Made by a program: the position numbers and the translations under genes. A stretch of 48,791 nt of DNA. Origin: Porticoccaceae bacterium (GTDB taxonomy: Bacteria > Pseudomonadota > Gammaproteobacteria > Pseudomonadales > Porticoccaceae). The notes below the pieces were generated by a model. It ran no database searches and had not been told where the DNA came from. It was given only the letters and a program-made list of their open reading frames with translations. The stretch covers positions 1-48,791 of the forward strand of contig JAQWUP010000033.1 in the NCBI GenBank assembly GCA_029242085.1, written 5' to 3'. How positions within the stretch are numbered: position 1 is the stretch's first letter; each line of letters opens with the position of its first letter. Positions 30,460 to 41,546 of this stretch are shown piece after piece.

Positions 30460-32463
30460 ATGACCATAAAACAGGTTTTTCACGGCGGTATTTTTTATCT
30501 ATTATTTATATTGTCCAGCAACCTGCAGGCATCGGATAAGACACAGCCCTATTTAATTGGTCGCGGTATCTCAGATATTACCGGGCCGCTGTTTGGCACT
30601 CAGATGTGGGGCTTTGGGCGTGAGGATCAGATCACCGAGGGGCTGCATATAAGGCAGCGATCAAGGGCCTTTGTTATCGCCGAGGCCGATGATCCCAGTA
30701 AACGGCTGGTCTTCGTCAGCGCCGATTTGGGCAGTATTGAACACCATATTAGCCTCTCTGTGATCGATCATTTGCAGCAACTCTACGGCGATACCTACAG
30801 CATCAAAAATGTCATTATCAGCGCCACCCACACCCATGCCGGTCCCGGAGGTTACTGGCACTCAAGATCCGATCTTGGCTTGGATGGCGGGTTCTACCCC
30901 GAACATTTTAAGATAATTGTAGACGGCATTACCGAGTCTATTATCAGTGCGCACAATGATCTGCAGCCGGGCAGTATTCTCCTTGGCAAAGGCAATGTGA
31001 CCAATGCCGGGGCCAATCGATCAGTTTTGGCCTATAAGCAAAACCCTCGGATCGAAAGAGAGAGTTACAGCGACAATACCCCCACTGAAATGAGCCTGAT
31101 AAAGTTTATTGATGACTCAGGACCAATCGGCATGCTTAATTGGTATGCGCTCCATCCCACGGCGATGAACTTTTATAATCGATTAATTTCTGGCGATCAC
31201 AAAGGCTATGCTGCATTAACAATGGAGCAATTACAGGGCACCAGTTACAGGGATAAAAATGATTTTGTAGCTGCCTTTGCCCAGGCCGATCCAGGTGATG
31301 TTACGCCCAATACCAATTTAAATAATACCGGCCCCGGGGCAACGGATGTAGAGACTACGCAAATAATGGGTGACCGTCAGTTGCAGGTGGCGCTGCAATT
31401 ATTTAACCATGCCGAGGAAGCACTGCATGGCCCAATTGAAACTCGCCAAGTCTATGTAGACCTGAGTGACTACAGTATTGAGGATAGCTTTACTCAGTCC
31501 GGTCCACAAAAGACCTGCCCGTCGGCCTATGGTTATTCCTTTGCCGGGGGCTCCAGCGAAGATGGCGGTGGACACTTTTTATTTAGAGAGGGGATGACTG
31601 AGCAGAGCTGGTTTTTAGATTTTTTAATCGGTTGGTTAACCGGCGCGCCCAAGTGGAGCGAAGCGGCAAAAGACTGCCAGGCACCCAAGCCTATATTATT
31701 TGAAACTGGCAGTGGTATGCCGCCTTTGCAGTCCCAGATACGCTCAATCACCCTTGCCCGCATAGGGCAGCTTGTGATTCTGGCCATGCCCACTGAGGTT
31801 GCCACTATGTCCGGCCGACGCCTGCGTGACACGGTGATCAACCAGCTTGGCGACTGGGCCCAGCATATAGTTCTAGCCGGATATTCAAATGGCTATGCCG
31901 GCTATATCACCACACCTGAAGAATATCTCGTGCAACAGTACGAAGCTGGTCATACGCTGCATGGCCGCTGGACATTGCCAGCCTACCAGCAGATCGTCAG
32001 TCATCTGGCCGAGGCCTTGGAAAACGACAGGATAATTGAGTCAGCTATCCGCTACGACGACTGGCGCGGCAAGTCGCCAGAATCCCCGCTTAATAGCACT
32101 ATCAGCCCGCCGCCCATAGGATCGCGCTATGGCGATCCCCTACCCCAACAACAGATACAGTATCAACAGGGTGACACTGTTATCGCTGAGTTTTGGTCGA
32201 GCAATCCGAATCGAAACTACAGAGCGGACAATAATTATATGTTGGTTGAGCGCAAGGTCGCCGGTGACTGGCAGACCATTGCCAGCGACAGCGATTGGAA
32301 TACCACCGTAAGATGGCGCGCCGACAAAAAGTCACTGGTCGCTGAGCTGAGTTGGACTCTACCCGAAGGGGTAACAGCTGGCGAATACCGCATCAGTCAT
32401 TTGGGATATGACCCTGCTGGCAATCAATTTAGGGGGATTTCAGATCCAATTAAGATTAAATAA
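30460..32463 (+). CDS. Secreted neutral/alkaline ceramidase family protein
   Basis: The family hydrolyses the N-acyl bond of ceramides using a zinc site. The 667-aa protein begins with a signal peptide (cleaved near SNLQASD). The metallohydrolase region has GRGISDITGP, VSADLGS, the zinc motif ATHTHAGPGGYW (His124, His126), NWYALHPTAM and SGDHKGYA. YSNGYAGYITTPEEY is a further signature, and the C-terminal Ig-like domain starts near residue 555. It is probably cotranscribed with the acyl-CoA synthetase. Sphingolipids are rare in these bacteria, so the substrate may come from algae or other plankton. Confidence 0.9.
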   Translation: MTIKQVFHGGIFYLLFILSSNLQASDKTQPYLIGRGISDITGPLFGTQMWGFGREDQITEGLHIRQRSRAFVIAEADDPSKRLVFVSADLGSIEHHISLSVIDHLQQLYGDTYSIKNVIISATHTHAGPGGYWHSRSDLGLDGGFYPEHFKIIVDGITESIISAHNDLQPGSILLGKGNVTNAGANRSVLAYKQNPRIERESYSDNTPTEMSLIKFIDDSGPIGMLNWYALHPTAMNFYNRLISGDHKGYAALTMEQLQGTSYRDKNDFVAAFAQADPGDVTPNTNLNNTGPGATDVETTQIMGDRQLQVALQLFNHAEEALHGPIETRQVYVDLSDYSIEDSFTQSGPQKTCPSAYGYSFAGGSSEDGGGHFLFREGMTEQSWFLDFLIGWLTGAPKWSEAAKDCQAPKPILFETGSGMPPLQSQIRSITLARIGQLVILAMPTEVATMSGRRLRDTVINQLGDWAQHIVLAGYSNGYAGYITTPEEYLVQQYEAGHTLHGRWTLPAYQQIVSHLAEALENDRIIESAIRYDDWRGKSPESPLNSTISPPPIGSRYGDPLPQQQIQYQQGDTVIAEFWSSNPNRNYRADNNYMLVERKVAGDWQTIASDSDWNTTVRWRADKKSLVAELSWTLPEGVTAGEYRISHLGYDPAGNQFRGISDPIKIK

Positions 32464-32503: not shown

Positions 32504-34237
32504 TTAAAACAATACGGTCTGCAAAATTATAATAATAAATAGCACTAATGAGAGCCCGCGCCAAAATGCCAGCGGGTTACTCTCTATCAGTGGTTGCTGA
32601 TCCATGCTGACAAAATGTTTATTTGGCGTGCGCAAGTCATAGATAAATTCTGAAACCTCATAGTAGCGCTTTAAAGAATTTATACTCAACGCCTTTTTTA
32701 AGCTTTCCTCAATCCATCGGGGCACATTTACCCCATGTTCATTGAGTGGCAGATAACGCAACTTTCGCTGCTCTAATCTATTGTGCGCTCTGGATACATT
32801 TTGCCCATAGGGGAATTTTCCTGACAGCATCTGATAGGCTATAACGCCCAATGAGAATATATCGACTCTGGAAGTAATCGGTGCATTGATAAAATATTCT
32901 GGTGATGAATATTGCAGGGTTCCAACAATGCCCTTATTGTTATCATGTATATCTAAAATTCCCGCCACCTTGGTACTGCCAAAATCAATAATTTTCACCG
33001 TGCCTGATCCGTCGATCATAATATTTTGCGGACGCAGATCCTGATGGATCATTTCACGGCGATGAAATGCCTGAATGCCTTTGGCTACCTGTTCGATAAT
33101 ATTGCGAACCTGCTCCAATGAGGGCGATGGATTATCAATCATCCACTGCATTAGATTTTGTCCTTCTACATATTCCGTCACTGTATAGAGGTAGTTTTGT
33201 TTGCGTTGGGGAGACTTCGCTTTCAACACATTTGGATTATCAATCCGCTTGGCAATCCAATCTTCACGCAATAGACTTTCTAAATATTCAGTATCATTTT
33301 TAAGCTCCGCTGAAGGAAACTTTAGAGCAACTCGCTCTCCTGAGACAGAGTCCTCCGCTAAAAAAACATGGCTGCGGCTACTGATATAGATTGGCCTGAT
33401 AATTTTATAGCCATCAAAATCCATTCTCGGTTCTATCTTTGGCGGCAGCGGTAATTGGCTGACAGCTTGACTGATCTCGCTAACGGATTTCTCCGGTAAC
33501 TGATCAAGGGTAACAATTTGTAGGCTGATATTATCGTCGCTGCCAGCCTCTAGTGCATCATTGGCAATTTTTTTTGCCAACTCGTCTAATGCCTCTACAG
33601 TGGGACTGGGACCAAGCCCACCGAGATACTGAGATAGCTTTTTTTCAGCAATAAATTCGTGGATACCATCGGTACAGAGCACAAAGCAGTCGCCCTCTTC
33701 AACGGGCCGACTCAAGTAATCTATATCAACCTTATTATGAATACCCAGCGCTCTTGTCAGATAACTGGATTGATCAGAGATCACATGGCGATGATCCTGA
33801 GTGAGACATTCAAAACCATTGCTAGAATAATGATAGATACGGGCATCACCGCAATGAAAAATATGGGCTGTCTGTGATTTAAGAACCAGGCTGCTAAAGG
33901 TGCAGATATAGCCCTTTTCTTTATTAAATCGATGCGGGCTATTATGGGTCTGGGAGAACAGCCAAGAATTGGTCGCGCTCAATACTTTCAGGACTGAGTT
34001 TTTAACGGACCAGGCATCTGAGGTACAGTAGTAATCGTCTAAGAAGCTGGTGACAGCCGTATGGCTAGCTATTTGGCTAACGTTACTGCTACTGATGCCA
34101 TCGGCAATAGCAATGGCAATACCCTTGCTATGTAAGAGTGGTTCACTGGGTATAGAGGCCCCGTAAAAATCCTGATTGACCGGTTTTTTACCGGCATCAC
34201 TGTACTGCCCCAAAGTAACTGATAATGCTTTAGCCAT
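32504..34237 (-). CDS. Fused PP2C phosphatase / Ser-Thr protein kinase, C-terminal membrane anchor
   Basis: A 577-aa bifunctional signalling protein. The N-terminal PP2C domain (about 1-245) has metal-binding NQDFYGA, IAIADGISS, FHCGDARIY and CTDGIHEFI. The kinase domain (about 270-535) has the ATP-binding Lys in RVALKFPSAE, the catalytic loop MIHQDLRPQNIM (HQD in place of HRD), KIIDFGSTK and the APE-like SPEYF. A single span of about 20 residues ends the protein, so the enzyme faces the cytoplasm. Relatives lie in nitrate/nitrite assimilation clusters of marine gammaproteobacteria. Here it follows cynS and an FNT channel, suggesting control of nitrogen uptake. Confidence 0.92.
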   Translation of the reverse strand: MAKALSVTLGQYSDAGKKPVNQDFYGASIPSEPLLHSKGIAIAIADGISSSNVSQIASHTAVTSFLDDYYCTSDAWSVKNSVLKVLSATNSWLFSQTHNSPHRFNKEKGYICTFSSLVLKSQTAHIFHCGDARIYHYSSNGFECLTQDHRHVISDQSSYLTRALGIHNKVDIDYLSRPVEEGDCFVLCTDGIHEFIAEKKLSQYLGGLGPSPTVEALDELAKKIANDALEAGSDDNISLQIVTLDQLPEKSVSEISQAVSQLPLPPKIEPRMDFDGYKIIRPIYISSRSHVFLAEDSVSGERVALKFPSAELKNDTEYLESLLREDWIAKRIDNPNVLKAKSPQRKQNYLYTVTEYVEGQNLMQWMIDNPSPSLEQVRNIIEQVAKGIQAFHRREMIHQDLRPQNIMIDGSGTVKIIDFGSTKVAGILDIHDNNKGIVGTLQYSSPEYFINAPITSRVDIFSLGVIAYQMLSGKFPYGQNVSRAHNRLEQRKLRYLPLNEHGVNVPRWIEESLKKALSINSLKRYYEVSEFIYDLRTPNKHFVSMDQQPLIESNPLAFWRGLSLVLFIIIILQTVLF

Positions 34238-34259: not shown

Positions 34260-34289
34260 GAAAGGCTGCCCACTATTGGGCAGCCTTTC
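34260..34289 (-). terminator. Hairpin between cynS and the kinase gene
   Basis: GAAAGGCTGCCC and GGGCAGCCTTTC form a perfect 12-bp stem around ACTATT. On the minus strand a weak T-tract (TTTTTCAAT-like) follows downstream. It may end or attenuate the cynS message before the kinase gene. Confidence 0.6.
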
Positions 34290-34314: not shown

Positions 34315-34755
34315 TTACCAGGATGCATAGGGTAAGAATTTTCCGTTGAGCGTCAGTAAAACTCGATCGCCCTTCGGACTTTCAATTTTGTCGACTTCCA
34401 TCGAGAAGTCAATAGCACTCATAATGCCATCACCGAATTTCTCCTGAATCACCTCTTTCAATGTATCGCCATAGACTCCCACAACTTCATAGAGTCGGTA
34501 GACAAGTGGATCTGTGGGTACAGCCTGATCCCAAATCTTAGTCGGAAATGCGGCCAATGCCTCTGTCACTTCTCTATCCAAACCCAGGTAGCTGGTAATC
34601 GCTTCTGCTTTATCTTGCGGCGCGCTGTTCATGCCCAGACATGCTGAGGTCAACCATACTGGAGACATAGATAAATCTGTTGCGATCTTTTCCCAGGTCA
34701 GGCCTTTTTCAGCTTTTGCAGAAATAATTACATCTGACATCGTTTCTTTGTTCAT
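34315..34755 (-). CDS. cynS: Cyanate hydratase (cyanase)
   Basis: Cyanase converts cyanate and bicarbonate to ammonia and CO2, giving usable nitrogen. At 146 aa it is close to E. coli CynS (156). The N-terminal helix-turn-helix-like fold (TWEKIATDLSMSPVWLTSA) is followed by the catalytic domain with Arg87 and Glu90 in VYRLYEVVGVYG and Ser113 in GDGIMSAIDF, matching E. coli Arg96, Glu99 and Ser122. A strong terminator separates it from the upstream channel gene, so read-through or its own promoter must serve it. No carbonic anhydrase gene is adjacent. Confidence 0.96.
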   Translation of the reverse strand: MNKETMSDVIISAKAEKGLTWEKIATDLSMSPVWLTSACLGMNSAPQDKAEAITSYLGLDREVTEALAAFPTKIWDQAVPTDPLVYRLYEVVGVYGDTLKEVIQEKFGDGIMSAIDFSMEVDKIESPKGDRVLLTLNGKFLPYASW

Positions 34756-34795: not shown

Positions 34796-34837
34796 AGCCG
34801 CCTTGACCGCCGCTATCTAATGGCGGTCAAGGCGGCT
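34796..34837 (-). terminator. Strong intrinsic terminator after the FNT gene
   Basis: A perfect 16-bp stem (AGCCGCCTTGACCGCC and its complement) with a 10-nt loop is followed on the minus strand by TTTTAAAA. It separates the channel gene from cynS. Partial read-through would set a high-channel, lower-enzyme ratio. Confidence 0.85.
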
Positions 34838-34845
34838 GCTTGACC

Positions 34846-35658
34846 CTATGTCAGTTTGCGTTCTGCGTTAGTTTTTACATGGGTCCAGTAGAGCGGTAGA
34901 CCGACTAAGAAGAGACCGCCAAACAGGTTGCCCAATACAGTTGGAATTTCATTCCACACCAAGTAATCAAAGATAGTGAATTCACCACCCATGATCATGG
35001 AGAACGGGAAAAGGAACATATTAACGATGGAGTGCTCGAAACCCATAAAGAAGAACAGCATAACGGGCATCCACATCGCCGCCATTTTGCTGCCAGCAGA
35101 GGTAGAGATCATAGCGCCCACAACACCCATTGATACCATCCAGTTACATAGCATGCCGCGGATAAAGATAGTGAACCAACCAGAGGTACCATGTTCCTGA
35201 TAGCCCAGAGTTCGCGATTCACCAATACTGCCAACCTTAGCAGCGAGCGCACCACCATCGGTGTTATAGCCATAGGTTAGAATAAAGGAAGCAAAGAAAG
35301 CGACGGTCAGTGCGCCGGCAAAGTTACCCACAAAAACCAAACCCCAGTTGCGCAGCATATTGGGCATAGTAGCCCCGGGCCGCTTATCCAATAGAGACAG
35401 TGGAACCAGTGTGAAAACACCTGTCAGCAAGTCAAACTTCATCAGGTAGAGCATGATAAACCCGACAGGGAAAAGGAGTGAACCGATCAACAGATTACCG
35501 GTGTAGGTAATAACTGAAATCGCAAAGAAAGCGGCCAAGCCGAGAATTGCGCCAGCCATAAAAGCACGTACTAAAGTATCTTTTGTTGACATGAAGAGTT
35601 TTGATTCTCCTGAGTCAACCATTTTTGTTACAAATTCACTGGGTTCTATGTAAGCCAT
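34846..35658 (-). CDS. Formate/nitrite transporter (FNT) family channel
   Basis: A pentameric inner-membrane anion channel with six spans. The ATG at 35658 (MAYIEPSEF) is preferred. The ATG at 35706 lies at or before the predicted sigma-54 transcription start (about 35705), so it could not be translated from that message. FNT motifs are LMKFDLLTG, RGMLCNWMVSMGV and the central His in GFEHSIVNMFLFP. Its place ahead of cynS and under an NtrC-type promoter suggests cyanate or nitrite import rather than formate export. The substrate is inferred from context only. Confidence 0.93.
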   Translation of the reverse strand: MAYIEPSEFVTKMVDSGESKLFMSTKDTLVRAFMAGAILGLAAFFAISVITYTGNLLIGSLLFPVGFIMLYLMKFDLLTGVFTLVPLSLLDKRPGATMPNMLRNWGLVFVGNFAGALTVAFFASFILTYGYNTDGGALAAKVGSIGESRTLGYQEHGTSGWFTIFIRGMLCNWMVSMGVVGAMISTSAGSKMAAMWMPVMLFFFMGFEHSIVNMFLFPFSMIMGGEFTIFDYLVWNEIPTVLGNLFGGLFLVGLPLYWTHVKTNAERKLT

Positions 35659-35714
35659 AATTTGTTTCTCTAGGTAATAAAGTGGATGGATGTTTAATGA
35701 TTGCATTTAGGATT

Positions 35715-35732
35715 TAGCAAGAAGGATGCCAA
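35715..35732 (-). promoter_or_regulatory. Sigma-54 (RpoN) promoter of the FNT gene
   Basis: The minus strand reads TTGGCATCCTTCTTGCTA. The -24 GG and -12 GC are separated by exactly 10 bp, and TTGGCA and TTGCT both match the consensus TTGGCACG-N4-TTGCT at all but the CG pair. Transcription would start about 35705, giving a roughly 47-nt leader. Confidence 0.75.
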
Positions 35733-35824
35733 CCTTTAGAAAACCTAGTTACGCGCTATCTTGGGGACAAAAAGTCGCTCCATGGCTTTTTATGAGGCAG
35801 AAAATTTTGCAGTTATAGATCTAT

Positions 35825-35841
35825 TGCACCTCTTTTGTGCA
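35825..35841. promoter_or_regulatory. NtrC-type upstream activating site
   Basis: TGCAC-N7-GTGCA matches the NtrC/GlnG binding consensus TGCACC-N5-GGTGCA at the ten outer bases. It is about 125 bp upstream of the predicted sigma-54 start, a normal enhancer distance. The 301-bp gap 35707-36007 holds this site, the promoter, and no convincing gene. Confidence 0.7.
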
Positions 35842-36007
35842 GCCAAATATAAACAGCCTGCTGAATTTGTAATATTTCTAGCGAAAGCTATGGGTGGGAT
35901 AGCGGGCATTACAGCAAATGTAATTGACCCTATTAGAGTAGTCGGACAACTCGACTGATTTTAAAACGGCAACCGAGTAGCGCTATCAATCAATGGAAGG
36001 CTCAGAG

Positions 36008-37246
36008 TTACTGCCCGCGATTAATACCTCTGTAGGCAGTCATGGAGGGAATGGCCGCCGCAACCATGGTCGCGCCTGCCACCAAGAGCAAAAAGAGGAT
36101 ATTGTTAAACGATAAGATATTTAAGCCGATATGCAGGCCAAAATTGGTGGATAGTGCATCCTGAGTAGCAAGCAGACACAGATATAGAGTAGCGGTGCCA
36201 GCGAACATACTAATAAAGCTGATCAATAATGCCTCTAGCTCTATCAATAAAAATAAATAAAACGGCGGCGCACCTATCACTCTGAGTAAATGTATTTCCT
36301 GCTCGCGCTCTTTAATAGACGCAAGCATCATTGCGCTGAGCCCCAGTAGAGCTGAGATCAGTATAAGGCCAGAAATCAGACGCAGCGTATTTTCCAATAG
36401 TCCCATCATCTGCCATAACTCTGACAGAGCCACGCCAGGGAGAATGGCCGAGAGAGGCTCTTTGCGATAATTGTTAATATCGCGCTGTACGCCAAAGGTT
36501 GCCATTCGAGAGCTCAGGCCAAGCATCAATGCAGTAATATTTTTTGGCTCGAGTTCAAGGGCTTGCAACTGCGCACTGGTCAATGTGCCTGCCTGCGTTT
36601 TAATCGCCTGCCAGTCCAGGTGAATAGCCTCTATTCCCTGCAGGCTGACATGCACAGTTTGATCAATTGGCGTTCCTGTGGCGGCCAATATACCCACTAC
36701 ATTAAAGGGACTCTTATCGTGCAGCTTAAAGCTCGTTGTGCCGAGACCATGGGCCAAAATCACCTTATCGCCCAGGCTGTAGCCTAGCTTCGTAGCAACC
36801 TGTGCACCCAGCACAACATCAAATAGTTCGGCAAAGGGCTGTCCACTGCTGAACTCAAGATGGCGCTTTTTACCATAGCTAAAATACTTAAAGTAATCGG
36901 TGGTTGTGCCCATTACCCGAAAGCCTTTGTGGGAATCACCTAACGAGATTGGAATTGACCAGGCTACTTTTGCCTTAGTGCTGATCTGCTGATAGGTCTC
37001 CCAGTCAATATTGTTGGTCGGTGAACCCAAACGAAATACAGAATAGAGCAATAGATTTAAGCTGCCGGTTCTTGCGCCAACAATCAGGTCCACCCCTGAG
37101 ACAGTGCTGTTGAAGCTCTGCTTACTCTGAGCGCGGATATGCTCTACCCCTAAAAGCACAAAAATACTCACCGTCATTGCCATAACGGTAAGCACAACTG
37201 AGCCTTTACGGTTTAATAAACTCTTGGAGGCAAGGCGGGCAAACAT
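36008..37246 (-). CDS. ABC transporter permease, FtsX/MacB-like (zinc-regulated type)
   Basis: A 412-aa inner-membrane protein of the MacB/FtsX fold. Its N-terminal span (about 17-37) is followed by a large periplasmic domain (GVDLIVGARTGSLNLLLY, HLDWQAIKTQAG). Three C-terminal spans follow (from about residue 285, with the IKEREQEIHLLRVIGAPP loop). The ATG overlaps the ATPase stop by one base, so the two are translationally coupled. With a divergent DUF3299 gene, a candidate Zur box and a nearby DUF2796 gene it resembles the zinc-uptake Zrg system described in Vibrio cholerae. The transported species is inferred, not shown. Confidence 0.88.
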   Translation of the reverse strand: MFARLASKSLLNRKGSVVLTVMAMTVSIFVLLGVEHIRAQSKQSFNSTVSGVDLIVGARTGSLNLLLYSVFRLGSPTNNIDWETYQQISTKAKVAWSIPISLGDSHKGFRVMGTTTDYFKYFSYGKKRHLEFSSGQPFAELFDVVLGAQVATKLGYSLGDKVILAHGLGTTSFKLHDKSPFNVVGILAATGTPIDQTVHVSLQGIEAIHLDWQAIKTQAGTLTSAQLQALELEPKNITALMLGLSSRMATFGVQRDINNYRKEPLSAILPGVALSELWQMMGLLENTLRLISGLILISALLGLSAMMLASIKEREQEIHLLRVIGAPPFYLFLLIELEALLISFISMFAGTATLYLCLLATQDALSTNFGLHIGLNILSFNNILFLLLVAGATMVAAAIPSMTAYRGINRGQ

Positions 37247-37926
37247 CAGCTGCCCTCTCCTGCTGCATTGATCTCAGATAGGGCATCAATGCGATCAAAG
37301 TAACTGGCGAGAGACATATCATGGCTGACAAAGAGCAAGCTGATGCCATGCTCAGACACCAATGACATCAGCGTTGACATAAAGTTATCCCGGTTTTTCT
37401 GATCCAGAGAAGACGTTGGCTCATCGGCAATCAGCAGCTGTGGCCTATTGATCAGCGCTCTGGCAATCGCAATGCGCTGTTGCTGCCCAATACTGAGCTT
37501 TGCCACCGGGTTGTGCCAGTCAGCCTGAGGAATATGGAAGGTCGACAGTAGAGACTTAATCTCGTCAATTAAAACCGGCTGCGGATTTTTATTGGCAAAT
37601 TGATGGGCCAGTTGAATATTATCAATAGCATCAATATAGGGAATTAAATTGAACTGCTGAAATATATAGCCAATATGATTGGCTCTAAAACGGTCGCGTT
37701 GGCGCGCACCCATGGTCTCGAGGCGCTCACCCAGCACATTTACTTCGCCGCTGGTCGCAGTCAACATACCACTTAGCAGGTTGAGTAATGTCGACTTTCC
37801 CCCACCGGATGGGCCATGCACAAAGACCTGTTCGCCAGTGGACAGCGACCAGTTTGCAATGTGCAATATATCGTTGTCTGGGGTTTCGGGATAGGCAAAA
37901 TGCACATCTTTAAGCTGAATGGCCAT
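37246..37926 (-). CDS. ABC transporter ATPase, LolD/MacB-like
   Basis: A 226-aa cytoplasmic ATPase partner of the 36008 permease. Walker A is HGPSGGGKSTLL, the Q-loop is in YIFQQFNLIPYID, the signature is LSIGQQQRIAIARAL (LSIGQ in place of LSGGQ), Walker B is LLIADEPTSSLD and the switch His is in FVSHDMSL. It is first in the minus-strand unit, and a candidate Zur box lies 46-60 bp upstream of its ATG in the 79-bp region shared with DUF3299. Confidence 0.92.
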   Translation of the reverse strand: MAIQLKDVHFAYPETPDNDILHIANWSLSTGEQVFVHGPSGGGKSTLLNLLSGMLTATSGEVNVLGERLETMGARQRDRFRANHIGYIFQQFNLIPYIDAIDNIQLAHQFANKNPQPVLIDEIKSLLSTFHIPQADWHNPVAKLSIGQQQRIAIARALINRPQLLIADEPTSSLDQKNRDNFMSTLMSLVSEHGISLLFVSHDMSLASYFDRIDALSEINAAGEGS

Positions 37927-38653: not shown

Positions 38654-39667
38654 CTATAAACAGGCCAATAGCTGGGTTTCCCACTGATCACAGATCTCGC
38701 TGGCAATGATATCAATACGACTTTCCAAACAGTCATCCAGCTCTATTTCAGTCAGAGCATCAGGGGTCAGGTTGTAGCCAAAGATACCGCTTTCAGTAAT
38801 AAAAACCGCTTTCACTCTCTCGGCAACCACACCGCTTAGAAAGAGAAATAACGCCTGTCGATTAAATATTTTCGCCGAGTCAAAACGCCAGCCTATGCTG
38901 TGAAATCCTTCACCATGGTTAGCCGCCTTCAGGTAGCCTGATTCAGGCAATGGTAGATCGATCAAGCTGCGCTGTGCAACATCCGGAGAATGATTGTGAT
39001 GGTGGTGGTCGTGATCACGGCAACCAGCAGAGGCACTGGTAGCGCCCTCTAGAATATTGAGGGATAAACGGCCCTGCTCGGTGAAGATGACCTCCACCTC
39101 AGATTGAGAAAGTGACGCAGCATATCGCTGGAGTTCAAGCCTATCGTCGGGCTGATAAAGGTCCTGCTTATTGCCAACAACAATATCGGCAATGGCAATC
39201 TGCTGATTAAACGTCGCATGCTCAAGGTACCTGGTATCAGCTAGATTACGCGCATCAACTAAGGTGATAATTTTTTCGATTGCGAGAGTATCGGTATAAT
39301 GCTCAGCGGTAAGCACTTCCAGCACTTCAACCGGATGTCCAATACCTGTTGGCTCAATTAATAGGCGGTCTGGTTTGGCTCGCGCCAGCAACTGATTGAG
39401 CGCGACTTGCATTGGCAGACCTGCAACACAACACATGCAGCCGCCTGGCACCTCCCGAATAAAAACGTTGCCGTCTTCGGGATGCTGACCTTGAAACAGA
39501 CTCCCATCGACACCCACTTCACCGAATTCATTGACCAGAACGGCCCAACGCTCATTATCTGGTTTTGATTTCAGAAGATGTAGGATAGCCGATGTTTTCC
39601 CAACTCCTAAGAATCCAGTGATAATATTGGTGGGTACAGCTTCAATTCTGCTCGCTATTTCTGTCAT
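38654..39667 (-). CDS. COG0523/CobW-family GTPase, zinc metallochaperone type
   Basis: A G3E GTPase of the ZigA/ZNG1 branch thought to deliver zinc to client proteins. Residues 18-25 form the P-loop GFLGVGKT. The metal motif CxCC is Cys77, Cys79 and Cys80 (GGCMCC). EPTGIGHP is switch-like, and NKQD gives guanine specificity. A His-rich loop (HDHHHHNHS) lies near 220 before the C-terminal CobW_C domain ([10 protein letters not shown]). It overlaps hisI2 by 4 bp (ATGA). That overlap, inside a Zur-type operon with backup enzymes, suggests that HisI2 or another zinc enzyme is its client. Confidence 0.93.
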
Positions 39668-40083
39668 CCCGCAGAGCCAAGAACCGTGACCAAGTTATTG
39701 GCACTGTCGACCTTAAAGTAAAAACAATTATCTCGGCCAGTGTGGCAGGCCCCGCCTGTTTGATTGACCAAACATAATAAGGCATCACCATCGCAGTCTA
39801 TGCGCATTGATACCAATGCCTGAATATTGCCGCTAGTTTCGCCCTTGATCCAAAATTGCGCGCGGCTTCGAGACCAATATGTCATTCGACCAGTCGCCAG
39901 GGTTTTGGCTATGGATTCTTTATTCATCCATGCCATCATCAGAACATCTTTACTCGTTGCATCTTGAGTAATAACGGGAATAAGACCCTTATCGTTAAAG
40001 CTTAATCTATCAATAAGACCCTGTAGCGCCAATGTCTGACCATCGTTAAGACGCTCAATAGATTCAAAGTAGGTATTTTTCAT
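39664..40083 (-). CDS. hisI: Phosphoribosyl-AMP cyclohydrolase, second copy (HisI2)
   Basis: HisI opens the purine ring of PR-AMP in histidine synthesis and needs zinc. The 139-aa protein is HisI only, without the HisE domain. It has [12 protein letters not shown], the substrate motif [11 protein letters not shown], and the zinc ligands Cys97 (RIDCDGDAL), Cys113 and Cys120 (ACHTGRDNC). All three ligands are kept, so it is not a zinc-free variant by this criterion. It is called a paralogue because HisI normally lies in the his operon and here sits between merC and the GTPase. Confidence 0.92.
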
Positions 40084-40099
40084 AACAGATAATTAGTCA

Positions 40100-40498
40100 T
40101 TACGGGTGACAATGGCAATTGGCACGCCTGCACAGTCTGTGGTTAATCAGGTGGCCGCTTGCAATAATAAGCGCGCCTATGGTCGTCAGGATGCTCTCCC
40201 CTGATTCACCTAGCAGTTCATGACCCATAAACGGAGTCGCCACTAGAATCATTAACCCAAAGACGCCAAGTGCCACAACGCTATAAGTTTTATGTCTCTT
40301 ACAGCCCATAGTAAGGGCGTATAAGCTAGTGGGTACCACTGCACTCAGCATCCACCAGTGAACAGCCTCGTCCTGTAAATTATATGCCGTCAGAACAGGT
40401 AGCAGCACAACTAGCAACGGCAGCGCCAGACAGTGGGCGATACAAAGAAAAGATAAACCTATAGCGGCTTTGTCAGAAATGGCTTGTATATTATTCAT
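40100..40498 (-). CDS. MerC-domain membrane protein
   Basis: A protein of about 132 aa with four spans. The start at ATG 40498 matches family N-termini; an ATG at 40540 overlaps zur. MerC proteins were first known for mercury transport. The Cys in SFLCIAHCLALPL sit in the first span, and further Cys/His are near the C-terminus (LINHRLCRRANCHCH). Copies in zinc-regulated loci are thought to move zinc or a similar metal. It lies between zur and hisI2 with 29- and 16-bp gaps, within one operon. Confidence 0.82.
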   Translation of the reverse strand: MNNIQAISDKAAIGLSFLCIAHCLALPLLVVLLPVLTAYNLQDEAVHWWMLSAVVPTSLYALTMGCKRHKTYSVVALGVFGLMILVATPFMGHELLGESGESILTTIGALIIASGHLINHRLCRRANCHCHP

Positions 40499-40527
40499 AA
40501 TTAATTCTTTTTTATGCTCAGGCCACT

Positions 40528-40986
40528 TTAATTTTTGCAACTGTGGCAGATACAGTTTATTTCCAACTGCGGGCTAGCCAGTTGAAAACCAGCATCTTCT
40601 ACGGTGCGCTGCAGCGTATTTATCGTTGACTTGTCAATGGTAATTTCTTTCACGCTTTGGCAGCTATTACAGATTAAAAACTGCACAACGCCATGGTCGT
40701 GATCACATGCTATATGGGTGCAGGCAATGTACTTATTAGCTAGCTTTAGCTTGTGGACCAAATGTTCATTTTGTAAAAAATCAAGAATACGGTAGACCGA
40801 CATCGGCGGCAGTGTTTCACCAAATTCATCTTTACAATAGTCAACCAACTCATAGGCTGATCTGGCTTTGTTCGATTGCAATAAGGCAGACAACACCTGC
40901 TTGCGTTTACTGGTTAAATTGACACCACGCGCTTTGCAGCTATTCTCGGCACTTTTAATTGCTGTCTGTACTCTACTAGCTGCCAT
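40528..40986 (-). CDS. zur: Zinc uptake regulator Zur (Fur family)
   Basis: Zur is a zinc-sensing repressor. At 152 aa it has the Fur-family winged helix (about 20-85, LTSKRKQVLSALL, LPPMSVYRILDFL) and a dimerisation domain. The structural zinc site is CxxC (Cys106, Cys109 in LICNSCQ) with a second CxxC near the C-terminus (CICHSCKN, Cys147 and Cys150). Sensor-type residues are in CTHIACDHDHG. Its start overlaps the stop of the zrgA-like gene by one base (TAATG). Co-operonic with other zinc genes and behind a candidate Zur box, it is probably autoregulated. Assignment as Zur rather than Fur rests on this context and sequence. Confidence 0.94.
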   Translation of the reverse strand: MAASRVQTAIKSAENSCKARGVNLTSKRKQVLSALLQSNKARSAYELVDYCKDEFGETLPPMSVYRILDFLQNEHLVHKLKLANKYIACTHIACDHDHGVVQFLICNSCQSVKEITIDKSTINTLQRTVEDAGFQLASPQLEINCICHSCKN

Positions 40987-41546
40987 TATCTAAACCGAAT
41001 AAGATTATTTTTTGGGGTTAACTCTGCCGAGCCCTGTTTAGCATCAGTGATCCAAATGACTCTGACCTGCTCTATTCTCGAGAAGCGCTTGATCAAATTC
41101 ACTTTAATAGCGTCTAAACTCTGCGCCTCAGAGCAGTCGAATTGATAGCTTGCTGTAATTTCGCTGTGGCTCTGCTTATGGTGCTGATGCTCAGTATCCT
41201 GCCCAACTAGTGCTGAGAAATCGGCACTTGCTCTATTGATCGAACAGTCACCGCCAGAAAAGGAAAATAGTTCTATCGGTGACTCAAGGATTTCTTTTGC
41301 ACCCTCTACTAGCTGTAACTGCTCACTGGACGATGCCCTGTGCTCAAAGCCGACAATATTCGCTGCCGGGGACTCAAAGCTGATCTCGAGACGACTTCCT
41401 TCAATAGCTATCATCAACTCTGTATAACCGTGCAGATGTGCATCTTGCTGAGGCGCATCATGATCATGATGTGAAGATTCGGCATTGAGATTGAGTGCAA
41501 TCGAACAGAGCACTGCAAATATGCCAAACGTAGAAAATATGTTCAT
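40986..41546 (-). CDS. DUF2796 His-rich periplasmic protein (ZrgA-like)
   Basis: A 186-aa protein with a signal peptide (cleaved near LNAESS). Two His-rich patches (SSHHDHDAPQQDAHLHGY near 24-41 and EHQHHKQSH near 118) suit periplasmic zinc binding. The DUF2796 motif is AHLHGYTELMIAIEG ... ISFESPAANIVGFEH. It is the first gene of the five-gene unit zrgA-zur-merC-hisI2-GTPase. A perfect candidate Zur box lies 48-62 bp before its ATG. ZrgA is a described zinc-acquisition protein in Vibrio cholerae, and orthology here is likely. Confidence 0.9.
   Translation of the reverse strand: MNIFSTFGIFAVLCSIALNLNAESSHHDHDAPQQDAHLHGYTELMIAIEGSRLEISFESPAANIVGFEHRASSSEQLQLVEGAKEILESPIELFSFSGGDCSINRASADFSALVGQDTEHQHHKQSHSEITASYQFDCSEAQSLDAIKVNLIKRFSRIEQVRVIWITDAKQGSAELTPKNNLIRFR

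Follow-up and report, generated by a model that had tools for sequence, protein, structure and literature searches.

The window examined here, a stretch of 48,791 nucleotides from the draft genome of a marine gammaproteobacterium of the Porticoccaceae, raises the question of which signal switches on a channel of the FNT family encoded next to a cyanase, and of what this channel would bring into the cell. The answer argued for below is that the sites in front of the channel gene are very likely the NtrC/sigma-54 promoter of a nitrogen-limitation operon, FNT-cynS-PP2C/kinase, with cyanate, and perhaps nitrite, entering via the channel.

Gene Content of the Unit

The unit lies on the minus strand. 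The channel gene (34846..35658, with its ATG at 35658) specifies 270 aa that match PF01226 with 211 bits against a cut-off of 34.6; behind it stands cynS, the cyanase gene (34315..34755), with 146 aa, 167 bits against 113 for TIGR00673 and 201 bits, over the cut-off, for NF002773; and finally comes a fusion of a PP2C phosphatase and a Ser/Thr kinase (32504..34237; 577 aa, PF13672 and PF00069) that ends in a hydrophobic C-terminal tail. The adjacency of channel and cyanase described in the initial annotation therefore holds, but the unit also includes the PP2C/kinase gene at 32504-34237, which had gone unmentioned.

A locus resembling one for zinc limitation (window 38654-41546) lies beside the cassette, with a CobW GTPase (38654-39667), a HisI-like PRA-CH gene (39664-40083), a Fur-family regulator (40528-40986) and the zinc uptake protein ZrgA (40986-41546). 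A neutral ceramidase-like protein is encoded at 30460-32463 (PF04734, 525 bits), and a gene of this kind also adjoins the cassette in G026, a relative of the same genus.

Promoter Elements in Front of the Channel Gene

A candidate sigma-54 promoter of the -24/-12 type, GTTGGCATCCTTCTTGCT, occupies 35716..35733 on the minus strand, and its core at 35716-35731, TGGCATCCTTCTTGCT, shows no mismatch to TGGCAYN5TTGCW and is preceded by a T; the invariant GG and GC of the box are both present, with 10 bp separating them. The element TTGGCATCCTTCTTGCT, on the minus strand of the window, is of the sigma-54 type with exact spacing and lies 110 bp from a TGCAC-N7-GTGCA palindrome. This NtrC-type enhancer palindrome, TGCACAAAAGAGGTGCA (35825..35841, minus strand), is the sole perfect one that a pattern search of the whole window returned. 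The transcription start predicted from the position of the promoter falls at about 35705 on the minus strand, 12 nt past the GC of the -12 element, which places the centre of the palindrome about 128 bp upstream of +1, inside the interval of about 100-150 bp upstream. The two positions were read against the forms that we take to be the consensus of the -24/-12 sigma-54 box (35716-35731) and of the NtrC palindrome (35825-35841). Thus, the two elements that had been announced before the FNT gene, TTGGCA-N6-TTGCT with exact -24/-12 spacing and a TGCAC-N7-GTGCA enhancer, are borne out.

Looser patterns say less. For TGGCAN{5,7}TTGC the window contains 9 matches where 3.2 are expected, a mild excess that one of 100 shuffles reaches, and palindromes with up to two mismatches number 29 against 30 expected, that is, without excess. 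The strength of the motif case thus comes from the perfect sites, their pairing and their conservation, and not from counts of loose patterns.

An Arrangement Common to glnA and ntrBC

The source draft genome of the window (G000; 2,193,357 bases, 82.65% complete) encodes RpoN, which, together with NtrB (331 bits against a cut-off of 240) and NtrC (724 against 559), completes the required set of regulators. Perfect copies of TGCAC-N7-GTGCA occur at four places in this genome, namely the FNT site, a site upstream of ntrBC, one on contig C30 and one on contig C80 that falls within a 409-aa frame, and perfect copies of TGGCAYN5TTGCW at 10, with the reversed control at 0 in both cases. When the two were searched as a combined arrangement (GCAC-N7-GTGC, 75-105 bp, TGGC-N7-TTGC, with the reversed pattern as control), the source genome gave three occurrences, which under this strict pattern precede glnA (C72, where the contig ends inside the gene and leaves a GlnA fragment), ntrB (C69) and FNT (C74) and no other gene. 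There are likewise three in G026, before the same three genes (glnA and ntrB recognised by eye from the source-genome proteins), one in G020, before FNT, and one each in G017 and G018, before ntrB (by eye); the zero of G032 is uninformative, the region before its channel reading N, and the control gave 0 in six of six genomes.

The distance from site to site is 110 bp in the window, 109 in G026 and 111 in G020 at FNT, 117 at ntrBC and 121 at glnA. In other words, the FNT promoter resembles those of glnA and ntrBC in its palindrome, its -24/-12 box and a similar offset, with the difference that theirs drive core nitrogen genes whereas this one would drive a channel, a cyanase and a kinase. A chance match as the origin of the sites was considered and ruled out by the genome-wide counts, the controls and the footprinting described below.

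On C30, the perfect palindrome (C30:137120-137136; L001 1501-1517) is followed after about 130 bp by a GntR-like gene in its longest reading (named by eye), which adjoins a flavoprotein-like gene, and across this 3-kb locus no sigma-54 site within one mismatch was found. The P-II loci of G000, G026 and G020 were tried as a further positive control and rejected in that role, as they contain no NtrC site within one mismatch; on a second look, they present a weak conserved form, with a one-mismatch sigma-54-like site 70-83 bp before the gene preceding P-II and a two-mismatch NtrC-like site 68-69 bp upstream of the former. The P-II/ammonium-transporter loci may therefore carry a weaker form of the arrangement, and are taken as a weak positive. 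In G000 it is an outer-membrane-like gene that precedes P-II and the ammonium transporter, and like sites are seen in G026 and G020 (L221, L223, L225; by eye).

Conservation in Same-Genus Relatives and the Start Codon

Comparison of orthologous upstream regions had been proposed in the initial annotation as a check, and both sites prove to be kept in G026 and G020. In the alignment of these two with G000, 14 of the 17 columns of the palindrome are invariant, as are 14 of the 16 columns of the sigma-54 core (35716-35731) and both bases before it; elsewhere, the invariant columns amount to 31 of 93 in 35732-35824 (including the two bases before the core), 16 of 119 in 35842-35960, and 30 of 57 in the leader. 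In these three genomes, then, the two sites together have 28 of their 33 columns invariant, compared with 47 of 212 in the intervening and upstream DNA. The sites have persisted despite the drift of the flanking DNA and despite differing upstream neighbours, which are ABC-transporter genes in G000, a DUF3299-like gene in G026 and a serine dehydratase-like gene in G020 (those of the relatives named by eye).

These relatives also bear on the start of the channel, which had been placed at 35658 and not at 35706. In each of the 11 genomes having a match, the best one begins its alignment at residue 1 of the 270-aa form; G026 and G020 both have counterparts of the ATG at 35658 and of its preceding AGAGA, and neither has one of the ATG at 35706, so that the start is set at 35658. 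Furthermore, the predicted transcript start at 35705 is one base past the first base of the ATG at 35706, and a transcript beginning there, without the complete codon, could not use it. The ATG at 35706 was ruled out as the FNT start by the residue-1 alignments and by its missing counterparts, and the earlier placement is thereby supported.

Promoters and Gene Order across Related Loci

The survey took in FNT relatives of the same order and the best 80 of at least 579 confirmed relatives in GTDB species genomes; 112 loci were kept once L043-L045, which duplicate L112, L113 and L121, and another 13 duplicates had been removed, and 108 of them have 350 bp of sequence ahead of the leading gene. 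This set is not phylogenetically independent and contains several near-copies. A sigma-54 site with at most one mismatch precedes, within 350 bp, 58 of the 87 units led by FNT, where 40 dinucleotide shuffles lead one to expect 0.7, and the comparison inside the FNT gene gave 0; before cynS it is found in 20 of the 21 cynS-led loci (0.1 expected from shuffles), the expectation over all 108 loci being about 1. The presence of such sites before either leading gene indicates that the promoter goes with whichever gene leads the unit. Pairs of a sigma-54 site (at most one mismatch) and an NtrC-like site (at most two), 60-200 bp apart, occur in 39 of the 87 FNT-led loci (0.00 expected) and in 5 of the 21 cynS-led ones (0.03 expected), NtrC-like sites being weak or not seen in many loci, above all in the latter. 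A sigma-54 site within one mismatch was not found in the 350 bp of the remaining 29 FNT-led loci, which means that control differs, or escapes this test, in some lineages. Carriers of the cassette among named relatives include Shewanella olleyana (L126), Catenovulum sediminis (L115) and Neptuniibacter caesariensis (L186). Taken together, the arrangement held in common with glnA and ntrBC, its conservation in two relatives and the sigma-54 sites before the leading gene in most relatives speak for the NtrC/sigma-54 control that had been proposed, and as a prediction NtrC control of the FNT operon is well supported.

With regard to gene order, the kinase gene lies downstream of the channel and codirectional with it at 96 of the 112 loci and is convergent at two, cynS is linked to FNT in 56, and nirB lies within 9 kb of FNT in eight, these linkage counts being lower bounds, with flanks of 1.5 kb at L094-L096, L098, L100, L104, L105 and L109 and contig ends at others. 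The cyanase gene takes up four positions: upstream of the channel in 22 loci, directly behind it in 13, codirectional behind the kinase in 12 and convergent in nine. The kinase is thus a more constant neighbour of the channel than the cyanase. Mapped on a tree of the 112 channels, the linkage of cynS requires 22 changes, and starred branches compel at least six of these; for the arrangements the figure is 32. The tree is a quick and partly resolved one that leaves 55 of 109 inner branches open and does not separate gains of linkage from losses. Among 145 genomes sampled evenly from the order, 36 FNT proteins score 195-226 bits with PF01226; 28 of these have the kinase at most 1.5 kb away and 16 have cynS at most 2.5 kb away, and the other 27 FNT matches of that sample have neither within these distances; cynS stands beside FNT in 16 of the 29 genomes that bear it. 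Genes resembling glnA-ntrB-ntrC, as named by eye, are found in G053 about 2 kb upstream of the cassette.

Within the genus of the window, the channel was found in six of the 35 genomes searched. The order is FNT-cynS-kinase in G000, G026, G020 and G032, and cynS-FNT-kinase in G017 and G018, whose channel groups with Alteromonadaceae, away from its congeners (SH-aLRT 89 and 81, not starred); this suggests that the cassette was acquired twice, separately, inside one genus. The kinase gene of G017 (L045 7543-9259) is read as two overlapping frames where its near relative G018 has a single one. Two genomes, G100 (L193/L194) and G166 (L204/L196), have two channels each, one by the kinase with nirB within 10 kb and the other by cynS; the cynS-linked copies, which come from two families, share one clade.

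The gap between FNT and cynS contains a strong and perfect hairpin of 16 bp followed by TTT (34796..34837, minus strand), possibly a partial terminator, and sequence and fold indicate another strong hairpin in the gap between cynS and the kinase (34260..34289, minus strand); a terminator scan of the window (loop of 3-8, at least five T) listed neither of them. Among 93 FNT-to-next-gene gaps, 42 have a best perfect stem that surpasses every one of 30 shuffles, the sequences of those inspected being unlike one another, and no such perfect stem occurs in this gap in G026 and G020. Partial termination yielding more channel than enzyme is a fair guess.

The Channel, Its Pore and Its Cargo

The channel scores below the cut-offs of the FocA equivalog TIGR04060 (119 against 290 bits), the NirC equivalog NF008595 (46 against 293) and the subfamily TIGR00790 (134 against 232). 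In a PDB sequence search its closest solved relative is LCIA (9v2a, 103 bits), with formate transporters next and FocA at 69 bits. Mapping on FocA through the alignment of that search places H209 as the central pore His and T79 and N172 as the Thr/Asn, residues whose roles in an FNT pore are presumed here. Seven candidate pore residues (F63, F67, L77, T79, N172, F202 and H209) are invariant in 112 of 112 channels, whether by cynS or by nirB, so that the sequence does not decide between cyanate and nitrite, and it is possible that the channel is open to both. A pore signature specific for cyanate was sought and rejected: among 25 positions tabulated by class (106 of 112 rows), variation is confined to 168, 176 and 206 and does not follow class.

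The argument that cyanate must be the cargo for want of nitrite assimilation was also dropped, nirB being present in G000. It is found on a different contig, beside a NasT-like gene and NrtA-, NrtB- and NrtC-like ABC-transporter genes (those four by eye), and since nirB has transporter-like genes of its own, the FNT channel is probably not the only entry route for nitrite in this genome, and cyanate is likelier than nitrite to be its main cargo. Thus, of the cyanate/nitrite scavenging locus of the initial annotation, the cyanate part gains, cyanate being the likely cargo as far as gene content can tell, and the nitrite part loses weight with nirB on another contig next to those genes.

Weighing the Alternatives

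As regards control, a sigma-54 activator other than NtrC, responsive to cyanate as is CynF of Pseudomonas, could drive the promoter; CynF is sigma-54-dependent and essential for the expression of cynABDS in P. pseudoalcaligenes (PMC6627978), and, G000 being 82.65% complete, another activator could be missing from this draft. We consider this very improbable, given that matching palindromes precede glnA and ntrBC in G000, that of the 10 sigma-54 activator-domain matches there just three are strong (over 220 bits, the next having 55), namely NtrC and two on contig C11, and that a Pfam scan of 15 window proteins detected no such domain. The motifs could also be accidents, with FNT transcribed from a promoter belonging to the upstream ABC-transporter genes at 36008-37926, which share its strand and the nearest of which ends about 350 bp before the channel start codon; however, both sites persist in G026 and G020 where the upstream genes differ, and shuffles of the 87 FNT-led loci give about 0.7 sigma-54 sites and no pairs, and the idea is hardly credible.

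As regards cargo, LCIA, the top PDB match, is named as a low-CO2 inducible protein and carries bicarbonate, the co-substrate of cyanase, which the channel could supply instead of or besides cyanate. Cells at marine pH normally have ample bicarbonate, and, moreover, 50 of the 112 channels, with no cynS linkage seen, still sit with the kinase, seven of these with nirB within 9 kb, so that such a role is improbable. A more serious rival, although we hold it to be unlikely, keeps the same NtrC/sigma-54 promoter but has the channel import nitrite, with the cyanase as a passenger on a nitrogen-limitation promoter or as a means of clearing cyanate by-products. In its favour are the nirB gene of G000, the eight loci with nirB close to FNT, the seven candidate pore residues common to all channels, and the fact that NirC, NAR1 and NitM carry nitrite, NitM being uninhibited by cyanate (PMC4390861). 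It is opposed by the location of nirB in G000, on another contig next to NrtABC-like ABC-transporter genes (by eye), and by the linkage of cynS in 56 of 112 loci, in four arrangements, against eight for nirB, even if the eight loci with 1.5-kb flanks could conceal more of either.

Comparison with Known Systems

Predicted sigma-54 regulons of alpha- and gammaproteobacteria are reported to be enriched in cyanate lyase (PMC12316311). The cynFABDS genes of Pseudomonas pseudoalcaligenes CECT5344 are a cyanase cluster with a putative sigma-54 promoter and repression by ammonium, and to this extent similar, but they employ an ABC transporter, CynABD, and a dedicated activator, CynF (PMC6627978), where the window has an FNT channel and an NtrC site; no activator was found among the neighbours of the window cassette that were scanned. 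In Bradyrhizobium DOA9, fnt has a candidate RpoN site and cynS is lower in an rpoN mutant, with the differences that this is an alphaproteobacterium, that its fnt site is weak and that the accessible text contains no description of a cassette (PMC13207237). In nitrifiers, focA/nirC lies next to cynS, and a cyanate transporter was proposed from this proximity, the role of FNT in cyanate uptake being called uncertain and based on genomic evidence alone; the part of that report available mentions neither a kinase nor NtrC/sigma-54 control (PMC10753782). The nitrite channels NitM, NAR1 and NirC have the FNT family in common with the window channel; of these, the cyanobacterial NitM takes up nitrite with no inhibition by cyanate, and nitM is linked to the nitrite reductase gene nirA in alpha-cyanobacteria (PMC4390861), whereas channels of the window type are mostly linked to the kinase and cynS.

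The PP2C/Kinase Fusion

Across 95 aligned rows, conservation reaches at least 95% at residues K306, E325, D400, N405 and D418 of the kinase and at D46, D131, D190 and D235 of the PP2C domain; we take these residues to be catalytic, D418 as the DFG Asp. The glycine-rich GxGxxG loop is not found in these rows; ssRShv stands in its place at 286-291, with R288 and S289 at 95% or more and the other positions at 70-95%. A strongly hydrophobic segment occurs in the last 60 residues of 76 of 88 rows (at least 540 aa) and in the rest of the protein in 0 of 88, nine of the 10 inspected among the 12 rows under the hydrophobicity threshold being just below it; confined in this way to the C-terminal end, the segment fits a tail anchor. 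Of the 92 long matches to the family in the order sample, 29 are beside FNT and 35 of the other 63 lie within 10 kb of nirB, which ties this kinase/phosphatase family to the uptake of nitrogen anions.

A phosphorylation site that would track the kinase was looked for and rejected: at residue 24, Ser is found in 93 of the 96 channels whose kinase is codirectional, and five of the 16 channels that lack such a kinase have Gly, but the five Gly-24 channels form one clade and hence represent one event at best. The branch of 2.04 leading to this clade in the quick tree misfits its 63% median identity to the rest, and no weight was given to it.

Proposed Course of Events and Significance

The course of events that we infer, with NtrC binding, induction, co-transcription, cyanate as cargo and a role for the kinase as its links, would be the following. 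With ammonium short, NtrB would phosphorylate NtrC, which would bind the palindrome at 35825-35841 and reach the sigma-54 polymerase at 35716-35733 through looping of the DNA; a transcript would start near 35705, with the channel first, then the cyanase and the kinase; the channel would admit cyanate, perhaps nitrite; the cyanase would turn cyanate and bicarbonate into ammonia and CO2; and the tail-anchored kinase/phosphatase would probably tune the channel or the enzyme. The phosphorylation of NtrC by NtrB and the reaction of cyanate with bicarbonate on cyanase are established biochemistry. The cell, in short, probably feeds on cyanate when ammonium is scarce.

The likeliest role for the kinase/phosphatase would be the gating of the channel. 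As a tentative proposal, possible but still short of probable, small-anion uptake would be gated by phosphorylation, in that the tail-anchored kinase/phosphatase would open and close FNT with nitrogen status and so limit the entry of a toxic anion (cyanate, nitrite) to the rate of its consumption, in a unit switched by NtrC and repeatedly paired with a cyanase. The adjacency of FNT and cyanase and the linkage of cyanases to sigma-54 have already been published; among the literature matches listed, in which few subscription journals were covered, there was no report of a kinase-FNT partnership or of control of FNT by phosphorylation. The control is thus a further case of a familiar kind, and the channel-cyanase-kinase unit beneath it is the less familiar part.

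For bacteria that lack known cyanate transporters, the uptake of cyanate is unsettled, and a conserved NtrC/sigma-54 promoter makes the idea of an FNT route testable. If the kinase does gate the channel, phosphorylation would emerge as a post-translational control on an FNT channel.
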